Source of the DNA: Acidiphilium acidophilum
GTDB taxonomy: Bacteria > Pseudomonadota > Alphaproteobacteria > Acetobacterales > Acetobacteraceae
DNA length: 64,000 bases
Assembly (NCBI RefSeq): GCF_033842475.1
Contig: NZ_JAWXYB010000018.1
Coordinates: 2,959,501-3,023,500 of the forward strand
Direction: 5' to 3'
The position numbers and the translations under genes were made by a program. Shown here in pieces: positions 20,959 through 61,372 of this stretch. The notes under the pieces were generated by a model. It was given only the letters and a program-made list of their open reading frames with translations. It searched no databases and was not told the DNA's origin. Position 1 is the stretch's first letter. Every line of letters begins with the position of its first letter.

Positions 20959-22622
20959 GTAACCGTTCACACCCCCCGGGTCAGACCGCTACCTGGGCAG
21001 GGATTGTGGGCAGCAGATTGTTAGCTCGTGCGGCGGTGATGAGGGCGCAGGCATAGGCCCATGGATCAGTGCCACGCTTGCGGCAGGTGTCAATGACGCT
21101 GAGCGCGGCGGCATAGAACCGGCTCCCTTCATCGGATCGCGTGCCAAAGCTGATGCGCCTCGAGATCACCGCGTGGCGGAGCGCACGTTCGGCATCATTG
21201 TTGGTGGGCGGTAAATCCCGATCGGCGACGAAGGCGACCACTGCGTCCCAGTCATTGAGGATTTCACCTGCCAGCCCGCGAACTTTCGCATCGATCTCAT
21301 GGCGATTGCATTGACAGTTCCATTTGATGCTCGCGGTCAGGCGCTTGATGGCGGCGGGGTCGTCGCCGTCATGCACGCGCTCGATCAGGCGGCGCAGATC
21401 GCGGACCAGATCGCTGCCGAAGCCTGATCCCGCGCCGTAATGCCCCTCTGCCAGCGCGCGGGCCTTACGGATCAGGTGCGCCAGACATCTCTGGCGGCGT
21501 GGATGATCGCGATAGGCACCGTAACCGTCGGTGACGAGCCAACCCAGAAAGGCCTCGCCGATCAGCGCGGCCAATTCGCAGTGCTTGCGGCTGCCGATCC
21601 GATAGACGATCGTGGTTGCCGTCACCGCAACCCAGAGCCACAGCAGACTTGCCTTTTGATACCACGGGGTTTCGTCGAGATGGACGATGTCAGCCGCACG
21701 CACATCTTCGATCAATTGCTCGACCACGGGTTCGCTCGCCAGACCGAATTCGTGAATGCAGCGTTCGATGGTGGCAATCCCGAGCTCAACGCCCAGCCAG
21801 TCAGCCAGGAATTCAGCGATCTTGACGCGCGAGAGGCGGAAACGCAGCGACAGCGCCGCGATGAAGGTGGCGAGCATCGGGCCAACCAGGCAGCGCTCGC
21901 TCATCAGCAGGTCGCGCCGGCGCCCCTCGACATGTGAGCACAGTCCGGTTGCGGGGCGTGCGATGGTCTCGTGGCCACAGTCGCAGCGTATCGCCAGATA
22001 GCAATGTTTCGTGGCTGCGACATGAAGGCTCATGTCGCCGCGGGTGAGTTCAAAGCTCAGATGAGCGCTGACTTGGCGGCTTTGCGAGACGGTGGAAGAT
22101 CCGAAAACTGCACGGCATGCGTCGCACGCTGTCGGCGCATGCAGGAGTTCACCGCTGACTATAATCGGCAACCGGCGCCAAAACCCTTTCGTCCCTGGCC
22201 GTTTGCCGGCCGGCTTGGGTCCAGGGTTGCCGGCGGAAGCGTTGCCGCCCGGCGCGGAACCACCACCCCCATCGGTTTTGTCGTCCCGGTCGGAGCGCTC
22301 AGAACTTTGCCCGCTCTTGGTGTTACGCCGGTAGGGATTGTCGCTGGAAGGCGGACGGGAACTGGTTGTTGAATCCTCGCCGGCATGGTTTGCCAGCGCT
22401 CGCGCCAATTCATGTAAATCCCAGGTCAGTTCTTCAAGCTCGACGCGCGACATCGCAGATAAATCAGTACGTTTAATGTCTTTCAGGCCGGGGATTCTCT
22501 GACGGGGCATCAGAATCGTAGAGTCCGGTTCGGGTGGAAAAGCAAGCCCAGCCTTTCGACATTTTACCGGCCGTTGGCTAACGCTTCATTCGAGGCAAGA
22601 AAGGGGGGGTGTGAATGGTTAC
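20959..22622 (-). mobile_element. IS66-family insertion sequence, complete, with 8-bp target duplication
   Basis: The 1664-bp element is bounded by imperfect terminal inverted repeats: left GTAACCGTTCACACCCCCC, right (reverse complement) GTAACCATTCACACCCCCC. GTAA ends are typical of IS66. The flanks are a direct repeat TTACGTTT at 20951-20958 and 22623-22630, an 8-bp duplication as this family makes. It carries a single transposase gene and no tnpA/tnpB, like the ISBst12 subgroup. Intact ends, duplication and open frame suggest recent movement. Confidence 0.9.
20981..22510 (-). CDS. IS66-family transposase
   Basis: A 509-residue TnpC-type transposase. The N-terminal coiled/leucine region is followed by a Ser/Gly/Lys-rich linker (SSRPPSSDNPYRRNTKSG) and a zinc-finger-like segment (CDACRAVF, CDCGHE). 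The catalytic acidic residues sit in VHLDETPWY, VTDGYGAYRDH and NNDAERALRHA, the usual IS66 DDE arrangement. The frame is uninterrupted. Confidence 0.92.
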   Translation of the reverse strand: MPRQRIPGLKDIKRTDLSAMSRVELEELTWDLHELARALANHAGEDSTTSSRPPSSDNPYRRNTKSGQSSERSDRDDKTDGGGGSAPGGNASAGNPGPKPAGKRPGTKGFWRRLPIIVSGELLHAPTACDACRAVFGSSTVSQSRQVSAHLSFELTRGDMSLHVAATKHCYLAIRCDCGHETIARPATGLCSHVEGRRRDLLMSERCLVGPMLATFIAALSLRFRLSRVKIAEFLADWLGVELGIATIERCIHEFGLASEPVVEQLIEDVRAADIVHLDETPWYQKASLLWLWVAVTATTIVYRIGSRKHCELAALIGEAFLGWLVTDGYGAYRDHPRRQRCLAHLIRKARALAEGHYGAGSGFGSDLVRDLRRLIERVHDGDDPAAIKRLTASIKWNCQCNRHEIDAKVRGLAGEILNDWDAVVAFVADRDLPPTNNDAERALRHAVISRRISFGTRSDEGSRFYAAALSVIDTCRKRGTDPWAYACALITAARANNLLPTIPAQVAV

Positions 22623-24590
22623 TTACGTTTTCCCCGCCGCCATCAACCCATAATGATGCATCTTCCGATACAACGTATTCCGGCTCATCCCCAGTGCCAG
22701 CGCGGTCGCCGCGATGCGCCAGTGATGATCTTCGAGGCTCGCGAGAAGTCTCCCCTTTTCATCCGGCGTCGCGCTCGCGCGGCGCGGCGCGGCGGAAATC
22801 GCCGGGCGCGCCTGTGCCAGTTGCGGCAGGTCGTTGCGCTCGATGATCCCGGTATCCGCGAAGGCGATGGCGGTGCGCAATGTGTTGCGTAATTCACGGA
22901 TATTGCCGGGCCAGTGATGCGCCAGCAATGCCGCTTTCGCCTCGGGTGCAAGGGTGACCGGGCTTGGCGCTTCCTCGCGGCAGATCTGCTCGATCAGCGC
23001 GGCGCGGTCCGTGCGGGCGCGCAGTGTCGGCATGGTGAGGGCGATGCCGTTGAGCCGGTAGAACAGGTCCATCCGGAACTGCCCGTCGGCGACGAGGGTT
23101 TCGAGGTCGCGATGGGTCGCGCTGATCACCCGGATATCCACCGGAATCGGCGTGGAACTGCCGAGCGGCACGATCTCCTTTTCTTCGAGCAGGCGCAGCA
23201 GCCGGGCCTGGATCGCGAGCGGCATATCGCCGATCTCATCGAGAAACAGCGTGCCGCCATGCGCCGCCAGCGCCTTGCCGCGCATCCCGCCCGCCCGCGC
23301 GCCGGTAAAGGCACCCGGCTCGTAGCCGAACAATTCGCTCTCGATCAGCTGTTCGGGAATCGCGGCACAGCTCATGGCAATGAAGGGTTGATCCCGCCGG
23401 TCGCTCGCCCGGTGGATCGTGCGGGCAAAACTATCCTTGCCGGTCCCGGTCTCGCCGAGCAGCAGGATGTTGATGTCGCGGTTCATCACCCGTTCCGCCC
23501 GCCAGGCATTTTCCACCATGACGGGATCGGTCCCGGCGAAGCTCGCGAGCGAGGGTCCGGCGGTCTCGCGGGGTCGGGCGCGTGGTGCCGGCGTCCGTGG
23601 CGCGGGCGTAATCGCCCGTGGCCGCGGGCGTGGCCGCGCCTGCTTGGCCGGCCAGATGCTGGCGAACCCGTGCCGGTCCGCGCCATGCGCGATCGGCCAG
23701 ATCGCGAAAGGCTGGGTCTCGGCGTGTTCGAACAGCCGGTCGGCGGTAATGTCGAACAATTCCCCCACGCTGCGCCCGATCATCCCGCTGTGATCCGGCT
23801 TGCCGAGCTGCCCCGGCACCGTGCTGTCCACCGCGCGGATATTCCCCTGCTCATCGATTGCCAGCAGGCTGTCATACGGCAGCCCGACCAGTTCGGGCCG
23901 CTCATGAAACCGCAGGATCAGGCAATCGCGATAGAAGTGGGTGAAATGCAGCTGCTCGATGATCCGCGCCGACATGCTCACCAGCGCGATCGTCGGCACC
24001 TGGGCCGCCCGGCTGTCGTCGCAATCGAGGCACGAGGCATCGAGCACCCCGAGCAACGCCCCGTTCGCGCCCCAGATCGGCGCGGCGGAACAGGTCATCC
24101 GCGCATTGCGGGTGAAATAATGATCGTCGCGATGCACCACCCGCGCCCGCCGGTCATGCAGGCAGGTTCCCGGCCCGTTGACCCCGGCATGCCGCTCGCC
24201 CCACAGAAATCCCGGCGCCATATTGGCATTGCGCGCGTGATCGGCGTTGGCATTGTCGGTGAACACATCGAGCAGCGCGCCCGACGCATCGGCCAGCATC
24301 AGCACGTAGCGCGACCCGGCGGCGGACTGGGTCACCTGATGTTCGATCTGCCCGTGCAGCCGGTGCATCTCGACCCGCCCGACCCGCTCGAACAACCCGC
24401 GCTCCTCGCGCAACCGCTTCAGCGCCGCCCCGCCGATATGCTCCCCCGGCGGCGGCCGGTCGGGATCGAGCCGGTACTCGTCGCGGCACCGCTGCCAGGC
24501 CGCCTCGATATAGGCCGCCCGTCCCGCCGCGCCCTCCTGCGACACGCGCCCGCCAGCGCCGAACGGTCCCGCTCTCGTGGCCTGGGTCAT
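22623..24590 (-). CDS. sigma-54-dependent activator, AcoR type
   Basis: A 655-residue enhancer-binding protein. Residues about 80-210 form a GAF-like sensor, then a basic linker (about 315-345). The AAA+ domain has Walker A GETGTGKD at 379-386, the sigma-54-contacting GAFTGA at 426-431 and Walker B GGTLFLDEIGD. A C-terminal Fis-type helix-turn-helix lies in HHWRIAATALALGMSRNTLY. It is divergent from xoxF, whose promoter has a sigma-54 consensus, so it probably controls that operon in response to an alcohol, aldehyde or related signal. Its stop codon lies inside the IS66 target duplication and is intact. Confidence 0.85.
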   Translation of the reverse strand: MTQATRAGPFGAGGRVSQEGAAGRAAYIEAAWQRCRDEYRLDPDRPPPGEHIGGAALKRLREERGLFERVGRVEMHRLHGQIEHQVTQSAAGSRYVLMLADASGALLDVFTDNANADHARNANMAPGFLWGERHAGVNGPGTCLHDRRARVVHRDDHYFTRNARMTCSAAPIWGANGALLGVLDASCLDCDDSRAAQVPTIALVSMSARIIEQLHFTHFYRDCLILRFHERPELVGLPYDSLLAIDEQGNIRAVDSTVPGQLGKPDHSGMIGRSVGELFDITADRLFEHAETQPFAIWPIAHGADRHGFASIWPAKQARPRPRPRAITPAPRTPAPRARPRETAGPSLASFAGTDPVMVENAWRAERVMNRDINILLLGETGTGKDSFARTIHRASDRRDQPFIAMSCAAIPEQLIESELFGYEPGAFTGARAGGMRGKALAAHGGTLFLDEIGDMPLAIQARLLRLLEEKEIVPLGSSTPIPVDIRVISATHRDLETLVADGQFRMDLFYRLNGIALTMPTLRARTDRAALIEQICREEAPSPVTLAPEAKAALLAHHWPGNIRELRNTLRTAIAFADTGIIERNDLPQLAQARPAISAAPRRASATPDEKGRLLASLEDHHWRIAATALALGMSRNTLYRKMHHYGLMAAGKT

Positions 24591-24763: not shown

Positions 24764-24778
24764 TGGCACGATCCTTGC
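24764..24778 (+). promoter_or_regulatory. sigma-54 (-24/-12) promoter of the xoxF operon
   Basis: TGGCAC-GATCC-TTGC matches the sigma-54 consensus (TGGCAC, 5-bp spacer, TTGC) at every conserved position. It lies 87 bp before the xoxF ATG, predicting a transcript start near 24790. The adjacent divergent gene encodes a sigma-54 activator, which makes a functional promoter very likely. Confidence 0.85.
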
Positions 24779-24865: not shown

Positions 24866-26716
24866 ATGGAAAGACTGAAACGGAAATCGTTAAGTCGTTC
24901 ACTGAAAGTGACGACGCTCGGCCTCTTCGGCGCATCCGCGCTCATGCTCAGCGCCCACGCCCAATCGAACGCCCCATCATCCAACGCCTCGCTGGTCTCG
25001 ATGCAGAAGAACGCGAATGACTGGGTGATGCCGACCGGCACCTACAACAACTGGCGCTACAGCCCGCTCAAGCAGATCAACACCTCGAACGCCAAAAACC
25101 TCCAGGTCGCCTGGTCGATGTCCACCGGCACCGATCGCGGCCTCGAAGGCCAACCGATCGTGATCGGCAACATGATGTATTTCGAAACCTCCTACCCGAA
25201 CTACGTCTACGCGATCGACCTCAACCACCCCGACCAGATCGCCTGGAAATATTCCCCCCCGCACGATTCCAACGCCCCCCCGGTCGCCTGCTGCGACGTG
25301 GTCAATCGCGGCCCCGCCTACGCGGACGGCATGGTCTACGCCAACGCGCTCGACGGCGTCCTCTACGCGCTCGATGCCAAAACCGGCAAAGTCGTCTGGC
25401 AGGCCAAAAACGCCCACCCGCAAAAGGGTCAGACCATGACCGGCGCGCCCATGGTGGTGGGTGACAACGTGATCACCGGGGTCGCCGGCGGCGAATATGG
25501 CGTGCGCGGCTACCTCACCGCCTACAACGCCAAAACCGGCAAGCAGGTCTGGCGCGCCTACAGCGAAGGTCCGAACAAGGACATGCTGATGAGCGCCACC
25601 CACACCATCAACGGCGCTACCGGCAAGCCGATCGGCCCGCATTCCAGCCTCAAGACCTGGCAGGGCAACGAGTGGAAAGTCGGCGGCGGCACCACCTGGG
25701 GCTGGTTCTCCTACGATCCCAAACTCAACCTGCTCTATTACGGCACCGGCAACCCCGGCACCTGGAACCCGAGCCAGCGCCCCGGCAAAAACCGCTGGTC
25801 CATGACCATCATGGCCCGCAACCCGGAAACCGGCGAAGCCAAATGGGTCTACCAGATGACCCCGCATGACGGCTGGGACTATGACGGCGTCAACGAAATG
25901 GTGCTGGTCAACGTCGATGACAAAGGCAAGGAAGTCCCCGCTCTGGTCCATTTCGACCGCAACGGCTTCTCCTACGTCATGAACCGCGAAACCGGCGCGC
26001 CGATCGCGATCCACAAATACGACCCCTCGGTGAACTGGGCGACCGGGATCAACCCCAAAACCAACGAACCGATCGTCGATCCGGCAAAAATGACCGGCAA
26101 CAACAAGGACGTGAAGGACATCTGCCCCGCCTCCCAGGGCGACAAGGACGAACAGCCGGTCTCCTACGATCCCCAGACCAAACTGTTCTACGCCCCGCTG
26201 AACCACCTGTGCATGAGCTATCAGGCGTTCAACGTGAAATACAAAGCCGGCTTCCCCTTCGTCGGCGCCATCGTGAACATGATCCCCGGCCCCGGCGGCT
26301 ATCGTGGCCGCTTCATCGCCTACAACCCGATGACCGGCAAAACCATCTGGCAGCATCACGACATGTTCCAGGATTGGGGGGGCGCCATGACCACGGGCGG
26401 CGGCCTCGCCTTCTACGGCACGCTGAAAGGCATGTTCCGCGTCGTCGATGCCAAAACGGGTAAAATGCTCTACCAGTTCAAAACCCCGTCCGGCATCATC
26501 GGCAACCCGATCACCTACATGCACGATGGCAAACAGTACGTCGCGATCCTCAGCGGGGTCGGCGGCTGGGCCGCGATCGGCATGGCTGACAACCTGCACA
26601 AGGCCAGTGCGGGTCTTGGTGCCGTCGGTCTCAACGCAACGCTGACCGACTACACCAACCTTGGCGGCACGTTGATGGTGTTCGCACTGCCCTCGAAAGT
26701 GGCCAGCGCGAACTGA
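24866..26716 (+). CDS. xoxF: lanthanide-dependent PQQ methanol dehydrogenase
   Basis: A 616-residue periplasmic quinoprotein with a signal peptide cleaved near SAHAQ. It has the eight-bladed propeller of MxaF/XoxF. The vicinal disulfide cysteines are C142-C143 in PVACCDVVNRG. Metal ligands are E210 (AGGEYG), N296 (GTGNPG) and D338. The extra aspartate D340 in GWDYDGVNE is the lanthanide signature; calcium enzymes have alanine there. It oxidises methanol (and often formaldehyde) and passes electrons to a c-type cytochrome. It heads an operon with xoxJ, a cytochrome and formaldehyde genes; a terminator-like hairpin follows the gene. Confidence 0.95.
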   Translation: MERLKRKSLSRSLKVTTLGLFGASALMLSAHAQSNAPSSNASLVSMQKNANDWVMPTGTYNNWRYSPLKQINTSNAKNLQVAWSMSTGTDRGLEGQPIVIGNMMYFETSYPNYVYAIDLNHPDQIAWKYSPPHDSNAPPVACCDVVNRGPAYADGMVYANALDGVLYALDAKTGKVVWQAKNAHPQKGQTMTGAPMVVGDNVITGVAGGEYGVRGYLTAYNAKTGKQVWRAYSEGPNKDMLMSATHTINGATGKPIGPHSSLKTWQGNEWKVGGGTTWGWFSYDPKLNLLYYGTGNPGTWNPSQRPGKNRWSMTIMARNPETGEAKWVYQMTPHDGWDYDGVNEMVLVNVDDKGKEVPALVHFDRNGFSYVMNRETGAPIAIHKYDPSVNWATGINPKTNEPIVDPAKMTGNNKDVKDICPASQGDKDEQPVSYDPQTKLFYAPLNHLCMSYQAFNVKYKAGFPFVGAIVNMIPGPGGYRGRFIAYNPMTGKTIWQHHDMFQDWGGAMTTGGGLAFYGTLKGMFRVVDAKTGKMLYQFKTPSGIIGNPITYMHDGKQYVAILSGVGGWAAIGMADNLHKASAGLGAVGLNATLTDYTNLGGTLMVFALPSKVASAN

Positions 26717-26778: not shown

Positions 26779-26835
26779 CCCGTCCGTCCCCCCTCGACCT
26801 CCCGATCCGCCTTACCGCCCAATGGAGTGAAAACC

Positions 26836-27708
26836 ATGAAACATTCGGCCCTTCGCCGGGCGACCCTGGCCGGCATGACGCTCGCCACCGCCGCCGCCCT
26901 CGCCGTCTCCCCCGCCGCCACCGCCGCCAACGCCGCCCCCGCCGCGAACGGCAAAGTCCTCCGCGTCTGCGCCGACCCGAATTACCTGCCCTACTCCAAC
27001 CGCGCCGGTCAGGGCTTCGAAAACAAGGTCGCCGAACTCGTGGCCAAGGCCATGGGCCGCAAGCTCGAATACACCTGGGCCAGCTATCGCGGCCACGGCG
27101 GCTATTCGAATTTCCTCGCGCTCAACCTCGACAAACACAAATGCGACGTCGTGATGAACCTCCCCTTCGGCGATCACGAGGAAGCCTACACAAAGCCCTA
27201 TTACCAATCCTCCTACGTGTTCATCACCCGCAAGGACAAACACCTCCACATCCGCTCGATGAACTCGGTCTCGATGCGCAGCATCAAAATCGGCTTCGAG
27301 GCCGATACCACGCCCGAAACCGCGATCAAGCTGCTCGACCTCATCAACAACGCGGTCGAATTCAACGTCGCGAGCAACCCGCAATCCTCGCCGAAGGAGC
27401 TGCTCCAGGCCGTGCAGGACGGCAAGGTCGGCGTCATGATCACCTGGGAACCCGCGATCGGCGATTTCCTGAAGGACTACCCGGATCTCAAGATTGCCCG
27501 CGTCCCCTCCGAGGAATACGGCCCCGGCCTGCCCACGGTCGATTACACCTACGGAATGTCGATGGGCGTGCGCAAGCACGACACTGCCCTGAAACTGGCG
27601 CTCGACAAGGTCATCGCGGCCAACAAGGGCGAAATCGCGGCGACCCTCGCGAAATACGACGTCAAGCTGCTGCCCAATCCCCGCCACGTCAACTTCCCGA
27701 ACCAGTAA
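26836..27708 (+). CDS. xoxJ: XoxJ/MoxJ-type periplasmic binding protein
   Basis: A 290-residue solute-binding-like protein with a signal peptide (ATAAALAVSPAATAANA). The mature start LRVCADPNYLPYSNRAGQGF is typical of the quinoprotein-associated family, and ESSYVFITRK-like lobes follow. XoxJ is thought to assist XoxF maturation or activation in the periplasm rather than import a solute. GGAG nine bases upstream favours the ATG at 26836 over a GTG at 26827. It is the second gene of the methanol operon. Confidence 0.88.
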   Translation: MKHSALRRATLAGMTLATAAALAVSPAATAANAAPAANGKVLRVCADPNYLPYSNRAGQGFENKVAELVAKAMGRKLEYTWASYRGHGGYSNFLALNLDKHKCDVVMNLPFGDHEEAYTKPYYQSSYVFITRKDKHLHIRSMNSVSMRSIKIGFEADTTPETAIKLLDLINNAVEFNVASNPQSSPKELLQAVQDGKVGVMITWEPAIGDFLKDYPDLKIARVPSEEYGPGLPTVDYTYGMSMGVRKHDTALKLALDKVIAANKGEIAATLAKYDVKLLPNPRHVNFPNQ

Positions 27709-27738: not shown

Positions 27739-28488
27739 ATGACGATCCCCAAATTCCGCACCATCATCGCCACCACCGCGATCGGCCTTTCCGCCGCCGC
27801 CCTGCTCAGCCTCGCCGCCCACGCCGCCGACCCATCGGGCACCACCACGCCCAAAGGCGAAACCCTCGCCAAAGGCAGCGACTGCTTCTCCTGCCACGCG
27901 GTCGACCAGAAAGTCGTCGGTCCCGCCTTCACCGCGGTCGCCGCCAAATTCGCGGGCAAACCCGGTGCCGAAACCACCCTGAGCGACGCGATCATCAAGG
28001 GCCATGTCGGCACCTGGGGCAACGTGCCGATGCCCCCGCATCCCAAAATCACCCAGACGGATGCCAAGGAAATCGTCTCCTGGATTCTCAGCCTGAAAAA
28101 ACCCGGCACCACCGCCTCCGCAGCCAGCGGCCAGAAATTCACCTACACCGTCAAAGGCAAAACCGTCACGACCGATTTCCCGATCCTGCAAAAGGGCACC
28201 GACAAGGTCACCCCGATGGTCTTCCGCGGCTACGAGCTGTTCAACTCCTACTGCTTCCGCTGCCACGGCGCCGACGCCGATGGCGGGTCCTACGCCCCCA
28301 ACCTGCGTGCCTCGCTCAACAACGGCATGAGCGAAAGCAAATTCCTCAGCATCGCCATGACCGGCGTGAAAGCGAAGGGCATGCCGAGCTGGGCGGGCTT
28401 CTTCACCCCCCACCAGATCAAGGCGATCTACCAGTACACCGCCGCCCGCGCGGTCGACGTCGTCCACCAGGGCACGCCGAAGCACTGA
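27739..28488 (+). CDS. di-heme c-type cytochrome, XoxG-like electron acceptor
   Basis: A 249-residue exported protein with two heme motifs: CFSCH at 49-53 and CFRCH at 172-176. The first half looks like a small cytochrome c551/552 unit ([18 protein letters not shown] with a distal Met). The second ([30 protein letters not shown]) resembles the single-heme cytochrome that takes electrons from methanol dehydrogenases. The usual XoxG has one heme, so this may be a fusion carrying electrons onward to the oxidase. Located directly after xoxJ. Confidence 0.82.
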
Positions 28489-28523: not shown

Positions 28524-29096
28524 ATGCCTATCGCTCTCCACCCGTCGATCGATAACGGGATCAAACACGGCAACCCCGGTTTCCACGGCGGCACGCTCCA
28601 CTGCCACTGCGCGAGCCACAAGGTCGAAGTCCGCATCGATGCGCAAACCGCGCACAACCACGCCTGCGGCTGCTCGAAATGCTGGAAGCCGAAAGGGGCC
28701 AAATTCTCGGTCGTCGCCGTCGTCCCGCGTGACGCCGTCCATGTCACCGCCAACGGCAACAAACTCCACATCATCGACCATAACGCCACCATCCAGCGCC
28801 ACGCCTGCCGCGAATGCGGCGTCCACATGTTCGGCCGCATCGAAAACAAATCCCATCCCTTCTACGGGCTCGATTTCGTCCACACCGAACTGTCGGACGA
28901 GCAAGGCTGGTCCCAGCCCGAATTCGCCGCCTTCGTCTCCTCGGTCATCGAACAGGGCACCCCGCCCTCCGAAATGGCCGCCATCCGCAACCGCCTCAAG
29001 GAACTCGGCCTCGAACCCTATGATTGCTTGTCGCCACCGCTGATGGACGCTATCGCGACTCATCTCGCGAAAGCATCAGGCGCTCTCGCGGCTTAA
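28524..29096 (+). CDS. gfa: glutathione-dependent formaldehyde-activating protein
   Basis: A 190-residue Gfa-family protein with zinc-binding cysteines: TLHCHCASH near residue 25, CGCSKCW near 48 and [10 protein letters not shown] near 93. It is proposed to speed the joining of formaldehyde and glutathione into S-hydroxymethylglutathione; in vivo the reaction may also be spontaneous. A ribosome site (GGGAGGAC) precedes the ATG. It lies between the cytochrome and the dehydrogenase that uses its product. Confidence 0.9.
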
Positions 29097-29115: not shown

Positions 29116-30224
<1,109 letters not shown>

Positions 30225-30225
<1 letters not shown>

Positions 30226-32327
30226 TGAAACACCGGCTGGCGGCCAGCGCGTTGTCGTTGTGGGCAAGCACGGCATTGACCGCCGTGGCCATGGCCCAAG
30301 TCGCCCCGCCAGCCATCCCTGTTCCCGGCTCCGTCGCCATCCAGCGGATCGTGGTCAGCGCCACCCGCACGCCGGAATCCAGCTTCAACGTCCCCGCCTC
30401 GATCTACACCGTCACCGGGCGCGAGGTCAGCGAGGCCAACGAACAGGAAAACCTCACCGAAAGCCTCCGCCGCGTCCCCGGCCTCGACGTCCAGAACCGG
30501 CAGGACTATGCTCAGGGCATCCGCATCACTTCGCGCGGCTTCGGCGCGCAGACCGCCTTCGGCACCCGCAACGTCAAAATCCTGATCGACGGCATCCCCG
30601 CCACCCAGCCCGACGGCACCGGCGATTCCGAAGTGATCGACCTCGGCGACGTCTCGCGCATCGAGGTTCTCAACGGCCCCTTCTCGGTCCTCTACGGCAA
30701 CGCCGCCGGCGGCGTCATCCAGGTCTTCAGCAAAAACGGCCCCGCCGAACCCACGCTCAGCGGCGGCATCCTCGCCGGCAGCTACGGCTCATGGCGCGCC
30801 AGCGCCTCCTACGGCGGCAACGAAAAAATCGGCACCGACGGCTCGTTCAACTACATGATGAACGCCTCGGATTTCTACTCCGGCGGCTACCGCGACCACA
30901 GCGCCGCCCGCCGCCAACAGTTCTACGGCAAATACCGCGTCAAGGTCGATGCCGACACCAGCTACACCCTCCTGATCGACGGCCTCGACGAACCCAATTC
31001 CCAGGACCCCGGTGCCCTCACCGCCGCCCAGTACCACGCCGACCCCCGGCAGGCCGGCACCGGCGCGGATCAGTTCGACACCCGCAAAACCCTGCGCCAC
31101 TTCCAGTTCGGCTTCATCCTCCGCCACCGCTTCAACGCAAACAACAGCATCCGCCTGCTGGTCTACGATGTCGATCACTCGGTCCTGCAATATCTGCCCT
31201 TCACCGGCAGCTTCGCCGCATCCGGCGGCGGCGTGGTCGATCTCGAACGCAAATCCGGCGGCGTCGGCGCCCGCTTCACCCACAAGGACGACATCGCCGG
31301 CATCCCGATCACCGCCGTCGCCGGCATCGATTTCGGCTACGAAGACCAGCACCGCAAAGGCTACGTCAACAATTACGGCACCATCGGCGCCCTCCGCCGC
31401 AACGAACAGGACACCGCCCGCAACATCGCCGAATACGCCCAGCTCAACGCCGACCTCACCCCGAAACTCATCCTCGACGCCGGCATCCGCCACAGCCAGG
31501 ATCAGTTCACCGTTCAGGATCTCTACGTCACCCCCACCCTCACCAACGACACCGGCAGCGTCACCTACGGCCATACCAGCCTCGTCGCCGGCGTCACCTA
31601 CCACCTCACCCCCACCACCAACCTCTTCGCCGACTACGGGGAAGGCTTCGAAACCCCCACCCTCGACCAGCTCGCCTACCTCCCCAACGGCGAAGCCGGC
31701 TTCAACTCGGCCCTCGTCCCCACCACCAGCGAAAATTACGAGGCCGGCATCAAATCCCTGCTCGGCAGCCGCACCTACCTCACCCTCGCCGGCTTTCACA
31801 TCCACACCAGCAACCAGATCGTGGTCTCCTCCTCGACCGATGGCCGCACCGCCTACGCCAACGAAGGCCAGACCGACCGCAACGGCGTCGATGCCAGCAT
31901 CGACAGCTTCCTCCCCCACCATATCGAACTCTACGGCGCCTACAGCCTGCTCAAGGCCGTCTTCACCAACAGCCCGGTCGCCGGAAAATTCCTCCCCGGC
32001 GTTCCCGCCCAGCGCATCTACGGCGAATTCGACTGGCACGACCCCGCAAGCGGCTTCTACACCTCGCTCAACGGCCAGTGGCAGACCCGCATGTATGTCG
32101 ACAATGCAAACTCCGCCTACGCCGCCGGCTACTTCACCGCGGGCATCGCCGGCGGCTTCCGCCAAACCCTCGGCAAATTCGCCTTCAACGAATTCGCCCG
32201 CGTCAACAACATCCTCAACCGAACCTATGTCGGCGCCGTCGTCATCGCCGCCAGCAACGGCGAATACTACGAACCCTCACCGGGCCGGAACTTCATCATC
32301 GGCATGACGGGGAAAGTGAAGTTCTGA
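30225..32327 (+). CDS. TonB-dependent receptor of the PqqU (YncD) type, probable PQQ importer
   Basis: A 700-residue outer-membrane receptor with a signal peptide ending in AMAQ. The plug contains LTESLRRVPGLDVQNRQDYA, FGTRNVKILIDGIPATQPDG and VLNGPFSVLYGNAAGGVIQV; the barrel ends YYEPSPGRNFIIGMTGKVKF. These stretches closely resemble my recollection of E. coli PqqU/YncD, the PQQ uptake receptor (PGLQVQNRQNYAQ, DGIPATMPDG, RYYEPSPGRNY). Being the last gene of a PQQ-enzyme operon supports that role. Start overlaps frmA by 1 bp. Specificity is unproven; a lanthanophore receptor is an alternative. Confidence 0.75.
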
Positions 32328-32490: not shown

Positions 32491-32573
32491 ATGCAAGCAC
32501 ATTTGTAAAAACATGCTTGCATAAACCTTCGTTTGGTTGTATGGTGCAAGCATAATTTTCTGGATTGCTTGCA
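32491..32573. promoter_or_regulatory. array of four TGCAAGCA operator-like sites before the P63C gene
   Basis: The 8-mer TGCAAGCA occurs at 32492 and 32545, and its reverse complement TGCTTGCA at 32515 and 32566. They make two inverted pairs; the first is a perfect 9-bp repeat, ATGCAAGCA / TGCTTGCAT. The last site ends 2 bp before the ATG of the P63C gene. The spacing and symmetry look like a repressor operator, perhaps autoregulatory. The regulator is unknown. Confidence 0.5.
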
Positions 32574-32973
32574 ATATGAGCGATGTAAACGAACCAACTG
32601 GCCGGGCTAGAGGTGGTTTGGCTAGAGCTAAAAAGCTAACCGCGAAAAAGCGCTCCTTGATCGCGTCGAATGCCGCCAAAAAACGCTGGGCACCTGTAGA
32701 ACCTTTGCCTCAACATTTGCCGTGCGTATTAGAGGGCTATTCGAGTTCGCTGGAACTTGCGGGGACAAAATTACCCTGCGCCGTGATTGAGGGGCCCAAT
32801 GGTGTGCAGCGGGTTCTAAGCGAAAGTGGCATCACCAACGCAATTTTAGGAACACGGAGCGGCGCTTCAAAACGTCTCAAGAAAGCAGCCGAAGAAGATG
32901 GTGCCCTCTTACCCCTTTTTGTTGCCCCAAGTCAGCTAAATGAGTTTATTACCAATGATTTATTGGACGGCCC

Positions 32974-34342
32974 CTCATTCATCCCCTCATATTGAATTCG
33001 CAACTATCGTTTAAAGAGAATCGAGAGGGCCGGGTTGGATTTTCGGAAGGAATCGGGATCGGTTGATCCAGGTTCTTTTCGTTCGAATTTTCTGGCTGCC
33101 CTTGTTCCTCGGTGCACGATTCCAAGGTTGCCCGGCAATCAGTCTGGTTTCTGGAGGATCGGATGGCTGCCAGGAGGAGACCCATGTCGTTTGACGATGT
33201 TCAGCGCTTTCTGGAAGGTTTGCTGGGGGAGGACCTGCATGCCAAGCGGATCCTGTCCCTGGCAGGAGCAACACTGGGGGTCATCGAGACCGCATCGCTG
33301 GCGATTGGCGCGATTGGCCAGGGGCTGGCTCTGGCACGTGGGCGACTGACCAAGCATGCGATCAAGCAGGTCGATCGCATGCTCTCGAACCCCGGGATTG
33401 ATCTGGACGTCGTGCTGCGGCGGTGGGTATCGTTCGTGATCGGGACGCGTGAGCGTATCGTTGTCGCGATGGATTGGACCGAATTCGACGCCGATGGGCA
33501 GGCGACGCTGATGCTCTCGCTGCTGAGTTCGCACGGTCGCGCGACGCCGCTGATCTGGCATACGGTTGATAAGGCCAATCTGAAGAACCGGCGCAATGAA
33601 GAGGAATACCGCTTGCTGGTCGCGCTGGCGGAAATCGTGCCGGCCGAAACAAGCGTCTGCATCGTCGCCGATCGTGGGTTCGGCGATCATAAGCTCTACC
33701 GGGTGCTGACGGAGGAGTTGAAGTTCGACTACGTGATCCGCTTTCGCGGCAATATCCTGGTCACCGCGGCGAGCGGCGAGGCCAGACCAGCCGCTGAGTG
33801 GGTGATGGCCGCCGGACGCGCCAGAACACTCCGCGCAGCCGCCGTCACCGCGGAACGGTTCACCGTCGGCACGGTGGTTTGCGTGCGGGACAAAGGTATG
33901 AAGGAACCGTGGTGCGTGGCCGCGAGCACCACCGATGATACCGCGCGCCAACTGATCAATCTCTACGCGAAACGCTGGACCATTGAACCGGGTTTCCGCG
34001 ACACCAAAAATTTGCGCTTCGGCATGGGGATGGGCGCCCTCCACGTCAGCACCCCGGAGCGGCGCGATCGCCTGTGGCTGCTCAATGCCTTCGCTGTCGC
34101 CCTGCTCACTCTGCTCGGTGCCACCGGAGAAGAACTTGGCTATGACAGGCACCTCAAATCCAATACCTCAAAGCGGCGGACCCACTCGCTCTTTCGGCAA
34201 GGATGCATGCTCTACGAGCTCATCCCCAATATGCCAGAGCATCGTCTCCGCCCATTGATCGAAAACTTCGCCCAAAACCTCGCTCAACAGTCAGTTTTCA
34301 ATGGAACCTTCGGTACGATATAGGAATGAGGGGAGTCCTGAG
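32974..34342 (+). mobile_element. IS4-family insertion sequence with target duplication
   Basis: About 1.37 kb between copies of GGACGGCCCC (32965-32974 and 34343-34352), a 9-10-bp target duplication. The ends share an imperfect inverted repeat of the form CTCA-N4-TCCCCTCAT (13 of 17 positions). It carries one transposase gene in the same direction as the disrupted P63C gene. The first base is uncertain by one, because a C is shared between duplication and repeat. Confidence 0.85.
33184..34323 (+). CDS. IS4-family transposase
   Basis: A DDE transposase of about 379 residues. Catalytic positions are the Asp in VVAMDWTEFD, the Asp in CIVADRGFGDHK and the Glu in the Y-(2)-R-(3)-E-(6)-K signature YAKRWTIEPGFRDTK. 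The ATG at 33184 has AGGAGG six bases upstream; a second well-placed ATG (33163, after GGAGG) would add seven residues, and a GTG at 33112 more. The frame is intact, so the element may still be active. Confidence 0.88.
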   Translation: MSFDDVQRFLEGLLGEDLHAKRILSLAGATLGVIETASLAIGAIGQGLALARGRLTKHAIKQVDRMLSNPGIDLDVVLRRWVSFVIGTRERIVVAMDWTEFDADGQATLMLSLLSSHGRATPLIWHTVDKANLKNRRNEEEYRLLVALAEIVPAETSVCIVADRGFGDHKLYRVLTEELKFDYVIRFRGNILVTAASGEARPAAEWVMAAGRARTLRAAAVTAERFTVGTVVCVRDKGMKEPWCVAASTTDDTARQLINLYAKRWTIEPGFRDTKNLRFGMGMGALHVSTPERRDRLWLLNAFAVALLTLLGATGEELGYDRHLKSNTSKRRTHSLFRQGCMLYELIPNMPEHRLRPLIENFAQNLAQQSVFNGTFGTI

Positions 34343-35019
34343 GGACGGCCCCCTAAAGCCCGTTGATTATATCGAAGGTGATCGGGTTGTTCGTGGATAT
34401 GACGCGTCAGTTCTGGTAGCAGTTTGCGGGGTCTGGCTAAAAGCTCGCGAAAATAAGAGGCTTCAAAAGCAGCAACTCTCAAAAGCCCAAAAAGCTGAAA
34501 ACTTGATGCTTGCGTTGGCCGAGACTGGGGTTGTCGCATTAATTGACGAAGCGACAGGCTATCAAGACGACAGGGCCAAAGACGCTTTAGCAAAGATTTT
34601 CACTACTTTCTTAGCAAAAGAGCGACAAAAATGGACTCCAACATTCCCTTTGGCGTTCTACAAGGAAATATATCGTTTGCGGGGCTGGAAATTTGAACCT
34701 TGGAATACGAAGAGACCGAGTGTAATTGCAGCGTGGACGGATGATTTTGTTTACGACAGACTTGCTCCAGGGCTGACTGAAGAGTTGCGTAATAAAAATC
34801 CTATTGTAGAAACTGGTAGGCGCACACATAAACATCATCAATGGTTTAATCCGGAAAGAGGCCATCCTAGCCTTAAAGAGCATATCTCTGGGGTAATTGC
34901 TCTGCTTCGCGCGGCTGAGAATTGGGGCGCGTTCAAACGCGGGTTAGATCGGGCATATCCGAAATTTGGAACAACGATTGAGTTGGCCTTGGCTGGAGGT
35001 AATAACGGAACGAAACGCC

Positions 35020-35178
35020 TTACTTAGCCCACCTCTTAGTCGCCGCCTTATTAGCGATCTCAGCACGTCGCTCTGGCGTCATGCCCGCGGCGCGAGCTTT
35101 GCCTCCCAATTTGCCAAGAGTAACCCCCGCGCTGGACGCGGGTAACACGTTCTCTTCCTCGCTGGTCGAAATCCGCAT
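35020..35178 (-). CDS. small basic protein with GGKARA…RRAEIANKAATKRW motif
   Basis: A 52-residue reading frame (MRISTSEEENVL… ending KAATKRWAK). Its core GGKARAAGMTPERRAEIANK matches a short motif common in mobile DNA, and also resembles the N-terminus of the neighbouring P63C protein (GGLARAKKLTAKKRSLIASN). It runs antisense, overlapping the end of the P63C gene by 8 bp. Its ATG and that of the plus-strand gene share the palindrome CATG at 35176-35179. It could be a DNA-binding accessory or regulator; function unknown. A fragment is also possible. Confidence 0.5.
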   Translation of the reverse strand: MRISTSEEENVLPASSAGVTLGKLGGKARAAGMTPERRAEIANKAATKRWAK

Positions 35179-35461
35179 GAGTAAAAAGGATGAATTGGTA
35201 GAGATATATACCCGAGTTGAAATTACGGCGAGAGACGTAGCTTCTATTTTAGGATGGGGCTACGACCCTAAAATTTTAGGCGTAGTGCTTTCCACTCGAT
35301 CGAACATTCTTAGCATCATTAGATATATGGCTTTAACCAAAGATGATCTTGCAGCCAAACGTAAGGTGGTAGAAAATTATTTTGATATCGAGGGTTCGAT
35401 CGGTGCTTGGGTTAGCGAGTTCGCCAAAAAACTAGGCATTCCGACAACAGGAGAAGAATAG
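35177..35461 (+). CDS. small hypothetical protein of the low-GC island
   Basis: A 94-residue protein (MSKKDELVEIYTRVEITARD… IPTTGEE) with AT-rich codon use unlike the chromosome around it. The sequence is rich in charged and aliphatic residues, predicted mainly helical, without signal peptide or membrane segment. I do not recognise the family. It is divergent from the 52-residue gene and lies at the right edge of the island, just before the palindrome at 35509. Confidence 0.5.
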   Translation: MSKKDELVEIYTRVEITARDVASILGWGYDPKILGVVLSTRSNILSIIRYMALTKDDLAAKRKVVENYFDIEGSIGAWVSEFAKKLGIPTTGEE

Positions 35462-35508
35462 TCTAAATCCAAAGGATTTTCGAACTGCGAGGCCGCTATG
35501 TTTTTTTT

Positions 35509-54284: not shown

Positions 54285-55367
54285 TTACGAGATCATCCGG
54301 TAGGCGAAATTATCGGAGGCTGCCGCGCTTTCGGCAACGGCGAGGTCGGCCATCATCGCGTGGTCGGGTGACAGGCCGCAGGCGGGATCGGTGGCCGCGG
54401 CGTTGCCGGTGAGTGCGAGGGCCTGGCAGCGGCAGCCGCCCCAGTCGATCTCGGCGCGGGCGCAGCCCCGGCACGGCGGGGCCATCCAGTCGGTACCGCG
54501 ATAGGCCCTGAAGCCGGGCGAATCGGCCCAGATCGCGCCGACGCTGCGCTCGGTGACCCGTTCGAACGGAAGATCGAGTGTTTCGGCGGCATGGCATGGC
54601 AGCATTTTGCCGCTGGGTGTGATGTTGAAAAATTGCCGTGCCCACCCGCCCATGCAGGCCTTCGGGCGGGAGGCATAATAGTCCGGAACGACATAATCGA
54701 TCACCAATTGGCCCGCGAGGCGGCGGCGCGCGTCCTCGACGATGCGGGTTGCCTCGTCGAGCTGGGTGCGGGTCGGGATCAGGGCGGCGCGGTTTTTCAG
54801 GGCCCATCCGTAATACTGGACGTGCGCCACCTCGATCCGCTGGGCACCGCTTGCGATGGCGAGGTCGAGCATGGCGGGGAGCTGATCGAGGTTCTGGCGG
54901 TGCACAACGGCGTTGATGGTCAGGGCAAGGCCTGCCTCGCGCACGAGGCGGGCCGCGGCCAGCTTTTTCTCGTGGGCTCGATCGAGGCCGGCAATGCGAT
55001 CGGCCATGTCCGGCTCGGCGCCCTGGAAGCTGATCTGGACATGATCGAGCCCGGCTTCGGCGAGGGCGGTCATGCGCCGTTGGTCGAGCAGGACCGCCGA
55101 GGTGATCAGGTTGGTGTAGAGGCCCTCGGTACGGGCGTGGCGAATCAGGTCGGGGAGGTCCTGGCGCACCATCGGTTCGCCGCCCGAGAAATGGGCCTGC
55201 AGGATGCCGATGCCGGCGGCCTCGGAGATCACGCGCTGCCAGGTTGCGGTGTCGAGTTCGTCGCGGGCGCGGTCGAGCCCGAGCGGGTTGGAGCAGTAGG
55301 GGCATTTCAGCGGGCAGCGATGGGTGAGTTCCATCAGCATCGCCAGCGGCGGGGGCAACATTGTCAT
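54285..55367 (-). CDS. pqqE: PQQ biosynthesis radical SAM enzyme PqqE
   Basis: A 360-residue radical SAM protein. The 4Fe-4S motif is C18-x3-C22-x2-C25 (HRCPLKCPYCSN), with GGEP at about 62-65 and a C-terminal SPASM-type cysteine set (CMGGWARQF, CHAAE, CRGCARAEIDWGGCRCQ). It forms the C-C bond between Glu and Tyr of PqqA with PqqD as chaperone. The ATG at 55367 overlaps the pqqD stop by 4 bp. Last gene of pqqABCDE. Confidence 0.95.
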   Translation of the reverse strand: MTMLPPPLAMLMELTHRCPLKCPYCSNPLGLDRARDELDTATWQRVISEAAGIGILQAHFSGGEPMVRQDLPDLIRHARTEGLYTNLITSAVLLDQRRMTALAEAGLDHVQISFQGAEPDMADRIAGLDRAHEKKLAAARLVREAGLALTINAVVHRQNLDQLPAMLDLAIASGAQRIEVAHVQYYGWALKNRAALIPTRTQLDEATRIVEDARRRLAGQLVIDYVVPDYYASRPKACMGGWARQFFNITPSGKMLPCHAAETLDLPFERVTERSVGAIWADSPGFRAYRGTDWMAPPCRGCARAEIDWGGCRCQALALTGNAAATDPACGLSPDHAMMADLAVAESAAASDNFAYRMIS

Positions 55368-55639
55368 GAGGCGATCATGCCTTTCGTGGCCAGATCGTCG
55401 AGCATTTCGAGGCAGTCGGCCAGCACGGCCTCGATCGGCGCCTGATAGCGGGCGGCGAGGCGGTCCGCGATGGTTGTGATGTCGGTGGTGCCGTCGCAGG
55501 CTTCGAGAATGGCGACGGCGATGGGGTCCGGCATGACGACGCGTTCGGGGGCGAGCAGGACGTGGCAGTTCCGGGCCGTATCGAACCGGAACCGGACATG
55601 CCGGGCGAGGCGGGGGATGCTGGCTGGGGTGAGGTTCAT
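55364..55639 (-). CDS. pqqD: PqqA-binding chaperone PqqD
   Basis: A 91-residue protein of the RRE fold (RLARHVRFRFDTARNCHVLL, RVVMPDPIAVAILEACDGTT). It binds the PqqA precursor and presents it to PqqE. The ATG at 55639 overlaps the pqqC stop by 4 bp; the longer frame upstream is the shadow of pqqC. Confidence 0.93.
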   Translation of the reverse strand: MNLTPASIPRLARHVRFRFDTARNCHVLLAPERVVMPDPIAVAILEACDGTTDITTIADRLAARYQAPIEAVLADCLEMLDDLATKGMIAS

Positions 55640-56376
55640 GACCAGGTGTCGCGATAGCCGAAGGCACCGGGCGGGATCATGCCCGGCATGACATAGGCAT
55701 GATGCAGCGCGTCGAGCTGGGCCCAGAGCACATCGCATTTGAAGCCGAGTGCGGCGATCACGGCCTGTTGCTGATCGGGGGTCCGGGCGTGACGCTTGAC
55801 GTAGTCGAGCGCGAAATCGGCATCGCGCGGGGCCTGATCGAGCCTCGCGTTGAAATAGGACAGGGTCTCCTTCGTGATGAAGTTGTAGTTGGCGAGCATG
55901 CCGGCGACGCGTTCGGAGATGATGGTGGGAGAGAACATCTCGGTCAGGGATGAGGCGACCGCTTCGAGCAAAGGGCGGTCACGCACGAAATCGACATAGG
56001 CCTGCACCGCGAAACGGGTGGCGGGAAGGGCGCGGGTGCGGCTGGTGACCATGTCGCGGTCAAGGCCGAGACCTTCGGTGAGGGCGAGCCAGCGGACGAT
56101 GCCACCTTCGCCGGGGGCGGTGCCGTCGTGGTCGATGAGGCGCTGGCGCCAGAGGCGGCGAAGATCGGGGTCGTCGGTGCGGGCGATCAGGGTGGCGTCC
56201 TTGATCGGGATGGCGGCCTGATAGCAATAGCGGTTGAGCGCCCAGGCCTGAACCTGACGCCGGTTCAGCGCGCCACCGTGGAGCAATTGATGGAAGGGAT
56301 GGCGGTTGTGGTAGCGCGCTGCACCAACGCTGCGAAGCTCGGCTTCCAATTCATCGGCGCTCATCAGAACGGTCAT
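55636..56376 (-). CDS. pqqC: pyrroloquinoline-quinone synthase
   Basis: A 246-residue all-helical oxidase that performs the last ring closure and oxidation of PQQ. Motifs are RYHNRHPFHQLLHGGALNR, VQAWALNRYCYQAAIPIKDA, SSLTEMFSPTIISERVAGM and YFNARLDQAPRDADFALDYV. Overlaps pqqB by 4 bp and pqqD by 4 bp. Confidence 0.95.
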   Translation of the reverse strand: MTVLMSADELEAELRSVGAARYHNRHPFHQLLHGGALNRRQVQAWALNRYCYQAAIPIKDATLIARTDDPDLRRLWRQRLIDHDGTAPGEGGIVRWLALTEGLGLDRDMVTSRTRALPATRFAVQAYVDFVRDRPLLEAVASSLTEMFSPTIISERVAGMLANYNFITKETLSYFNARLDQAPRDADFALDYVKRHARTPDQQQAVIAALGFKCDVLWAQLDALHHAYVMPGMIPPGAFGYRDTWS

Positions 56377-57296
56377 AGGGTCAGTTCCAGTCCGTCATGG
56401 GCGACGATCCACCCGGCGTGCGTGGCTGCGGCGCGTTCGGGCGAATCATCGAGGATCATCGGGTTGCTGTTGTTGATGTGGACGAAAACTTTCTGCCCGA
56501 TCGCGGCATTGGCGAAGGCTTCGAGCGTGCCGCCGGCCCCCCCGACGCTGATGTGACCCATGCGGGTGCCGGTTTTGGGCAGGAGCCCGGCATCGATCAT
56601 TTCGTTATCATGCCAGAGTGTGCCGTCGAACAGCAGGAGCGGGGCCCCGTGGAGCCGGGCGGCGAGTTCGGGCGGGACCGCGGCGCAGGCGGGGATGTAG
56701 TAAAAGAATGCGCCGTCGGGACCGGTGATTTTCAGGCCCAGCGTGTCGCCTTCGGTCGAACCGAGATCGGGGCGGTCCGTATTTTCGGCGTAGAGGGCGA
56801 TTTTGCCGGGGACCGCGAAGGGTTCCACCGTGAGCGCGAGGTCATGGCCCGCCGCATCGAGCAGGCGGGTTGCCGTGTCGATCTCGATGCGGCGCTGCGG
56901 GACGGTGGTGGGGGCGAGGACGCGGAAGATCGCGCTTTCGGCCAGACGGTCGAGGGTGCGCTGACCGGCGTAGAGGGCGAAGGGCTGGCCCTCGCGCAGA
57001 TTGAGCAGACCGGCGGTGAAATCGACGTCGGCACCGGTCAGGACCACGGCGGCGATCGGACTGTCACGCTGACCGGTGCGGGGGTGGAGTGCCGGGGTTC
57101 CGAGGATCTGCTGGCGCAGGTCCGGCGAAGCGTTGAAGATGACATAGTCTTGCCCGTTGGCGGTCACCGCGAGAGCCGCCTGGGTGCGGGGTTTGGCATG
57201 CGGGTCGCCCGCCCGGGCACGGGTGCAATTGGCGCAGGCGCAGTTCCATTGCGGAAAGCCGCCACCGGCGGCAGCACCCAGGATGATCAGTTTCAT
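56373..57296 (-). CDS. pqqB: PqqB, metallo-beta-lactamase-fold oxygenase of PQQ synthesis
   Basis: A 307-residue protein starting MKLIILGAAAGGGFPQWNCA with a CxCxxC zinc motif (CACANC). The characteristic LTGADVDFTAGLLNLREGQP, FFYYIPACAAVP and FVHINNSNPMILDDSPER follow. PqqB hydroxylates the cross-linked diamino acid intermediate. ATG at 57296 begins the conserved N-terminus and is 58 bp after pqqA. Confidence 0.94.
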   Translation of the reverse strand: MKLIILGAAAGGGFPQWNCACANCTRARAGDPHAKPRTQAALAVTANGQDYVIFNASPDLRQQILGTPALHPRTGQRDSPIAAVVLTGADVDFTAGLLNLREGQPFALYAGQRTLDRLAESAIFRVLAPTTVPQRRIEIDTATRLLDAAGHDLALTVEPFAVPGKIALYAENTDRPDLGSTEGDTLGLKITGPDGAFFYYIPACAAVPPELAARLHGAPLLLFDGTLWHDNEMIDAGLLPKTGTRMGHISVGGAGGTLEAFANAAIGQKVFVHINNSNPMILDDSPERAAATHAGWIVAHDGLELTL

Positions 57297-57354: not shown

Positions 57355-57432
57355 TCAATCGATATCGGCGCAGGCGTAGCAGTTGATTTCGGTTCCCACG
57401 GCGATTTCGACGAGTTTCGGTTTGGTCCACAT
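57355..57432 (-). CDS. pqqA: PQQ precursor peptide PqqA
   Basis: A 25-residue peptide (MWTKPKLVEIAVGTEINCYA, then CADID). The glutamate and tyrosine that become PQQ are E15 and Y19 in the conserved E-x3-Y spacing. GAGGAG seven bases upstream gives strong translation. First gene of the pqq operon. Confidence 0.95.
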   Translation of the reverse strand: MWTKPKLVEIAVGTEINCYACADID

Positions 57433-57821: not shown

Positions 57822-57958
57822 GCTCTGATCGCAAAGATGATGGCCTGATAAAAAACTGCTTGCATCACGCGCGCGTTATGATAGCGTTACCATCGTTCCG
57901 AACGCTGGCCCGCGTGGTGGGCCGATCGCGGTCATCAAAAAAAGGGGAAACGGGAACG

Positions 57959-60915: not shown

Positions 60916-60979
60916 GGGGGGTTTGCCAGATCGGGCGCGGGCATCTACCTCTGATCTCTCACAGCGCCGGAGCCGCAAG

Positions 60980-61372
60980 ATGAAGTATCTGCTGATCTGC
61001 CTTGCCGTCGCGCCGATGCTCGGCGGCAGTTGCGCCTGGGCCGGGCAGGATGATTTCATCCCGCCCTCCACGTTTCCGCCGCTGCCGGATGCCACCGTGA
61101 TGGCGATGAACCAGACGGCGGCGAAAATGTTGAAGCAGCCGGGGGTTGCGCGGGTCGGGTTCTACGAATTCGTCGTCGATGCCGCCGGCAAGCTGACCAA
61201 GATCGGGATTGCCCGCTCCGCCGGCGATGTGATCGACGATGACAAGGCGATCGCGGCGATCGAGGCGACCCATTTCGATCCGGCGGCGCAGGGCAAGCAG
61301 GTGTTCCGCCTGCTGCCGATCCGGTTTACTGCGCAGGAAGGCTTCTACATCCCGCCCGCCGGGCAGCGCTGA
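60980..61372 (+). CDS. small periplasmic protein with TonB-C-like fold
   Basis: A 130-residue protein with a signal peptide (LLICLAVAPMLGGSCAWAGQ). The mature part reads like a TonB C-terminal domain: ARVGFYEFVVDAAGKLTKIG, then IARSAGDVIDDDKAIAAIEA and HFDPAAQGKQVFRLLPIRFT. It has no membrane anchor or proline spacer, so it is not a working TonB. It follows the quinoprotein/cytochrome pair by 64 bp on the same strand and is probably in their operon. Function unknown. Confidence 0.65.
   Translation: MKYLLICLAVAPMLGGSCAWAGQDDFIPPSTFPPLPDATVMAMNQTAAKMLKQPGVARVGFYEFVVDAAGKLTKIGIARSAGDVIDDDKAIAAIEATHFDPAAQGKQVFRLLPIRFTAQEGFYIPPAGQR

Follow-up and report, generated by a model that had tools for sequence, protein, structure and literature searches.

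A methanol operon of Acidiphilium acidophilum ends with the gene for a relative of the PQQ receptor PqqU whose predicted binding pocket is altered, and this arrangement suggests, as far as sequence can tell, that a bacterium that makes PQQ also recaptures it. The gene lies in a 64,000-nucleotide stretch of DNA, the whole of which was analysed and is called the window here. PQQ is synthesized in the cytoplasm, is used in the periplasm and is small enough to leak (PMC12124388). That paper describes PqqU as almost absent (n = 1) from Alphaproteobacteria, which are PQQ producers. The Acidiphilium set carries, in the operon of a PQQ-needing enzyme, a PqqU relative that the residue signature given in the same source would discard. 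Among the papers listed and the passages covered, none reports a PqqU relative from Acidiphilium or from a xoxF operon. With this gene, cofactor recapture by a producer becomes directly testable.

The receptor gene and the xoxF operon

The receptor is encoded by an open frame of 700 residues plus stop (30225..32327, + strand), which was assigned to the PqqU family of TonB-dependent receptors by HMM, Pfam, PDB sequence and tree. Pfam Plug and barrel domains identify it as a full-length TonB-dependent receptor homologous to PqqU. It matches the NCBIfam model for PqqU, NF041535, with 550 bits (E 7.6e-165, residues 43-695), and the runner-up family is the siderophore receptor model TIGR01783 with 147 bits, below its cut-off of 223.5. 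The seven Acidiphilium receptors score 542-562 bits against NF041535, and the 550 bits of the window protein fall short of the curated equivalog cut-off of 1200 bits. The top PDB sequences are the YncD/PqqU entries 6v81 and 9c4o (E 1.7e-132 and 2.3e-131), followed by a third at 6.5e-13, and identity to E. coli PqqU is 36.4% over 676 aligned positions. The motifs from which the first-pass annotation had recognized a PqqU/YncD-like protein (VQNRQ-YAQ, DGIPAT-PDG, GPFS-LYGNA-GGV and YYEPSPGRN) do align with E. coli PqqU without gaps.

Phylogeny had been proposed as a check on this assignment, and the receptor falls inside the PqqU clade. In two quick IQ-TREE trees, with SH-aLRT support alone, the Acidiphilium receptors form one clade (100) within the group of E. 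coli PqqU (98 and 100 in the two trees), and the surrounding clade that holds E. coli PqqU comprises 53 rows (SH-aLRT 100). As to the possibility, also raised in that annotation, of a siderophore receptor or a protein that has lost its PQQ residues, siderophore families score far lower, while the PQQ site is conserved only partly. Comparison of the window gene with six congeners gave dN/dS values of 0.08-0.24, which are rough, as dS reaches up to 1.5; this purifying selection indicates a gene in use. An AlphaFold2 model calculated from the window protein and five Acidiphilium relatives, one of them partial, had a mean pLDDT of 25.7 and a pTM of 0.18, too low for reading pocket geometry from it. 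A scan of viral contigs for relatives of the receptor returned three, all partial.

Upstream of the receptor gene and on the same strand lies xoxF (24866..26716), encoding a predicted PQQ-dependent methanol dehydrogenase of the lanthanide type. The window XoxF is closest to lanthanide-dependent XoxF structures (6oc5), and its WDYDG motif at residue 337 contains the second Asp of the D-x-D motif (WDxDG), which we take to be a mark of lanthanide-dependent XoxF. It is followed by genes for an xoxJ/MoxJ-like periplasmic protein (26827..27708, +; TIGR03871 at 203.5 bits, slightly below the cut-off of 212) and for a c-type cytochrome in the position of xoxG (27739..28488, +), assigned from synteny and weak cytochrome c matches that are all below cut-off. 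Next are gfa (28524..29096, +) and frmA (29116..30225, +), assigned by HMM as S-(hydroxymethyl)glutathione synthase and S-(hydroxymethyl)glutathione dehydrogenase, respectively. The stop codon of frmA (TGA, 30223-30225) and the receptor ATG, which begins at 30225, overlap by one base, in agreement with the translational coupling proposed previously. The resulting TGATG is found in six of the seven Acidiphilium loci, the two codons abutting as TGAATG in the other; in G006 a second in-frame receptor start follows the first.

The gene order xoxF-xoxJ-cytochrome c-gfa-frmA-receptor is shared by the window and four congeners (G003, G004, G006 and G008) and is consistent with the clusters of G007 and G011, which are interrupted by contig ends; the order in G408 could not be resolved. 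Because the gene after the receptor in the congeners runs opposite to the operon, the receptor gene is the last of the operon, a placement that the first-pass annotation had also made.

A sigma-54 (-24/-12) promoter-like site, TGGCACGATCCTTGC (24764..24778, +), lies 87 nt upstream of xoxF, and a sigma-54-dependent activator with GAF, AAA+ and Fis HTH domains, identified by HMM, is encoded divergently (22623..24590, -). With TGGCAC-N5-TTGC, presumably the sigma-54 consensus, this is the single mismatch-free occurrence in the 64 kb. When one mismatch is allowed there are 7 sites in the window compared with about 5 in shuffles, so the site counts by its place and its conservation: TGGCA[CT]-N5-TTGC is present about 100 nt upstream of xoxF in seven of eight Acidiphilium, and in the more distant genome G1159 it is also upstream of xoxF, closer to the start. 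No such site was found upstream of xoxF in G011 (L110), G1128 or G792. Between 24500 and 32900, all 13 terminator-like sites (10.4 expected in total) are on the - strand and none is on the + strand. A low G+C stretch behind the receptor (32500-35500) contains a DDE transposase gene (33112-34323), and an IS66 transposase gene (20981-22510) lies on the other flank of the operon. The closest xoxF of the family outside the genus (G792, 71%) is followed by xoxJ and cytochrome genes; gfa, frmA and the receptor were not found in the stretch fetched around it. The gfa and frmA genes of Acidiphilium, along with a methanol dehydrogenase, have been ascribed to horizontal transfer (PMC7677001).

Distribution and origin of the receptor

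Of 12 genomes of the genus, its own among them, seven carry the receptor; a thirteenth, G408, has a fragment of it. Close relatives, 77-83% identical, come from A. rubrum, A. iwatense, A. sp. PA and two metagenome assemblies, one of them partial. In G408 (L007, L084, L109) the fragment (residues 323-700) is 83% identical to the window receptor and the XoxF of that assembly is 99% identical to the window's, a disparity because of which one contig may come from another Acidiphilium and be mis-binned. Among 150 genomes of the family the receptor was found in two, both of the genus, and xoxF (E 1e-180) in 35. Among 385 sampled genomes of the class it was found in one, its own, absence from the class being defined at E 1e-60 in this sample. 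Distant relatives (23-28% identity) do exist in the class. Three of them (L021, L022 and L024; 23-26%) have Asp at the position of E. coli Gln121, and at E 1e-6 none of the xox and pqq genes of the window had a match in their neighbourhoods. Two alphaproteobacterial plasmids, of Novosphingobium and Tistrella, encode relatives 26-28% identical over 90-95% of the query. The plasmid search gave 1030 further records, and in many of the listed ones the match spans no more than half of the query.

The sister of the Acidiphilium clade (SH-aLRT 100) and its nearest relative, at 51% identity, is encoded in a non-alphaproteobacterial genome, G1128 (L168/L196). The rows from outside the class are inferred to be Gammaproteobacteria because E. 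coli PqqU falls among them, and the simplest reading is transfer of the receptor from a methylotrophic gammaproteobacterium, the direction of transfer being presumed. Like the Acidiphilium gene, the G1128 gene has xoxF (67%), xoxJ and a cytochrome gene nearby, at about 7-9 kb. In contrast to it, the gene is on the strand opposite to the xoxF cluster, matches to gfa and frmA were not found in the fetched stretch, and the protein keeps R304, with Tyr and Ser at positions 121 and 477, respectively. No PqqC match was found in G1128 (98% complete) at E 1e-20. Its xoxF-xoxJ-cytochrome c cluster (L196/L201) includes a second TonB-dependent receptor (L196:3107-5464), and its PqqU relative lies beside genes that, by eye, are putatively for formaldehyde oxidation.

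A second relative, in G1159 (L197/L202), adjoins a gene for a sigma-54 activator (41%) and has xoxF (55%), xoxJ (30%), frmA (79%) and gfa (67%) within the same 13 kb, in a genome with PqqC. It differs from the Acidiphilium receptor in its lower identity (37.5%), in keeping both R304 and Q121, and in lying on the strand opposite to xoxF. The G1128 and G1159 contexts were chosen as the two best new matches, so their linkage to xoxF is no random sample. Among 20 other neighbourhoods (10-18 kb), three show a quinoprotein dehydrogenase homologue, in one case a weak match, and a single one contains pqqB, pqqC and pqqE.

Substitutions in the predicted PQQ pocket

The published signature for PQQ in E. 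coli PqqU consists of Y/F/W99, R304 and R365, and an R304E mutant of that protein supports slower PQQ-dependent growth (PMC12124388). E. coli PqqU/YncD (b1451; 6v81, 9c4o) and the Acidiphilium receptor share the plug and barrel and are homologous over their full length, and the window equivalents of the PQQ contacts could be read from the alignment. Six contacts are identical in the window protein: Q84 (Gln97), K274 (Lys288), Q308 (Gln322), R365 (Arg377), Y481 (Tyr485) and R536 (Arg541). An aromatic residue is kept at Y99 (Phe112). The Acidiphilium receptor differs from E. coli PqqU in carrying Y99F, Q121D (Asp134), R304H (His318) and N477D (Asp481), and Q310 aligns with Leu or with a gap of the window protein, depending on the alignment. 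It also differs in its setting, an alphaproteobacterial PQQ producer and a methanol operon. All seven full-length Acidiphilium receptors have the same residue at each of these positions (Phe99, Asp121, Lys274, His304, Gln308, Arg365, Asp477, Tyr481 and Arg536, in E. coli numbering); at position 84, three have Gln and four have Thr. The signature thus holds at position 99 and at R365 in all seven and fails at R304, where all seven have His, a change that is fixed in the genus sequences seen.

For comparison, 72 outside-class rows were used, of which a first set contributed 49 and a second set 23. The first set used 49 of 52 matches other than the receptor's own, G483 (later recovered as L173), G693 and G526 being left out; removal of five loci that repeated earlier rows and of five outgroup rows left the 23 new rows of the second. 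Position 304 is Arg in 69 of the 72 relatives, Lys in two, Thr in one and His in none. Asp121 does not occur among them, and Asp477 occurs once (L171). In the first alignment, 60 columns were invariant, that is, with at most one deviating row among 50 outside-class rows; all seven Acidiphilium keep 49 of these columns and replace six, and the other five vary. The six replacements are R96Q, G103N, Q121D, R304H, E478Q and E551D, in which Q121 and R304 contact PQQ and E478 adjoins a contact. Two of four invariant contact columns are thus replaced compared with four of 56 other invariant columns, for which a p of about 0.05, worked by hand, is weak taken alone. E478Q is common to Acidiphilium and G1128 and hence is not confined to Acidiphilium, and the same holds for Asp477, owing to L171.

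We considered whether the whole receptor had turned acidic and rejected this: the outside rows have a mean net charge of -9.5 (sd 14.2), and the seven proteins, at +2 to -13, fall inside that spread. The net charge change over 108 well-conserved columns is +2. Hence only the pocket has become more acidic. Among the 23 rows of the second set, 14 have Glu in place of K274 (L172, L174, L176-L178, L180-L183, L185-L187, L193 and L195), and each of these has Ser, Gly, Asn or Ala rather than Gln at 121. This covariation bears on the idea of metal cotransport put forward in PMC12124388.

At neutral pH, the substitutions would leave the Acidiphilium pocket with less positive and more negative charge, and a tricarboxylate should bind to it less well. 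Acid tuning, a metal complex and a changed ligand are candidate causes of the pocket change. Because K274, R365, R536 and the stacking aromatic residue are retained, PQQ or a PQQ complex is the most likely ligand. The receptor most likely takes up PQQ through a pocket adapted either to acid or to a complex of PQQ with a metal. As a natural variant with His and Asp in place of Arg, Gln and Asn, this pocket offers a tool for studying the recognition of PQQ, acid and metal by PqqU.

Proposed recapture of PQQ and alternative readings

The same window contains pqqABCDE, as the first-pass annotation had noted, all on the - strand between 54285 and 57432. The pqqB (56373..57296), pqqC (55636..56376) and pqqD (55364..55639) genes score above their HMM cut-offs; pqqA (57355..57432), coding for 25 residues with the ExxxY motif EINCY, and pqqE (54285..55367), coding for a radical SAM protein, were read by eye from their translations. 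Eight of 13 Acidiphilium genomes have XoxF and PqqC, and these eight also have the receptor, if the fragment of G408 is counted; the receptor was not found in the five genomes without PqqC and XoxF, three of which are 78-88% complete. Two genes would agree in this way by chance in about 1 of 1287 cases if the genomes were independent, which they are not. The expected co-occurrence with PQQ synthesis is thus complete in Acidiphilium (8 of 8). Among other carriers of PqqU relatives, PqqC is present in 24 of 54, a count that took in three of 21 new carriers of the second set, so a PqqU relative in a PQQ producer is not odd in itself.

We consider it somewhat probable that the receptor works as a PqqU-type importer in the outer membrane, dependent on TonB, and recaptures PQQ to supply XoxF, a quinoprotein of the same cell. 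Import of PQQ is inferred from family, place and linkage. The earlier proposal that a PQQ producer re-imports its cofactor fits the family assignment, the place in the operon and the linkage to PqqC; the lack of R304 in the PQQ site stands against it. During growth on methanol the operon would be switched on, freshly made PQQ would escape from the periplasm, the receptor would bind the leaked PQQ with high affinity, and TonB-ExbBD would power the return of the cofactor for insertion into XoxF. If this is true, a producer makes, loses and retakes its own cofactor under one promoter, and the published residue signature misses a PqqU. More speculatively, in acid the His would be charged like Arg and the Asp largely protonated like Gln or Asn, and PQQ would be bound strongly at pH 2-4 and weakly at pH 7; such a pocket would work because Acidiphilium lives in acid. 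We propose only tentatively the fuller version, in which a receptor acquired horizontally changed Arg-Gln-Asn to His-Asp-Asp and came to bind PQQ or PQQ-lanthanide at acid pH alone.

An alternative that we regard as unlikely is uptake of a preformed complex of PQQ with lanthanide or calcium, by which the receptor would supply XoxF with both cofactor and metal, with His318, Asp134 and Asp481 serving as metal ligands or the pocket being adapted to the complex. The gain of a His and two carboxylates at PQQ-contact positions in a receptor of a xoxF operon is in line with this reading, as is the cotransport proposed for PqqU relatives with Glu at K274 (PMC12124388). However, all seven Acidiphilium receptors keep Lys at K274, the residue that stands in for the metal in E. 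coli PqqU, and the convergence of the three side chains on one spot is presumed, the residues being known from sequence. The linkage to the operon could also come from a PQQ-metal complex or from another methanol-related ligand. That the ligand is no longer PQQ, and that a lanthanophore, a siderophore or another small acidic molecule linked to methanol uses a PqqU-derived scaffold, seems just as improbable. Three contact positions are altered, one of them a signature residue, and methylotrophs take up lanthanides with the aid of the TonB receptors LanA and LutH (PMC12482762). Against it, 49 of the 60 family-invariant columns are retained, R365 among them, as are K274, R536, Y481 and the aromatic residue at 99; siderophore families are far lower in score, in a comparison set that did not include LutH and LanA; and metallophore synthesis families were not found in the 21 window frames run through HMMs. 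Least probable is piracy, in which the receptor would mainly take the PQQ of neighbours. In its favour, scavenging is the role of PqqU in E. coli (PMC12124388), and the nearest relative's genome, G1128, has xoxF and the receptor with no PqqC match at E 1e-20. Against it, the Acidiphilium receptor is always found with PqqC and in none of the five genomes without it, a distribution that recapture fits better.

Recapture by the producer would resemble the role described for PqqT of Methylobacterium extorquens, a methylotroph that makes PQQ, where PqqT is said to retain the cofactor or take it back; PqqT is a periplasmic binding protein, unlike the outer-membrane receptor of Acidiphilium, and the two are likened by description alone (PMC12124388). 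The receptor's own genome has three ExbD matches. Beside pqqA-E, the window has genes for another quinoprotein dehydrogenase (57860-59629) and for a cytochrome c protein (59626-60915), as well as one, within 60755-61372, for a small secreted protein that carries a TonB C-terminal domain. In G006 this trio was not seen in the 7.5 kb behind the receptor. In G003 and G007 it lies instead about 1.5-2.6 kb beyond the receptor, where G004, G008 and G011 have genes for a quinoprotein dehydrogenase and a cytochrome c protein.
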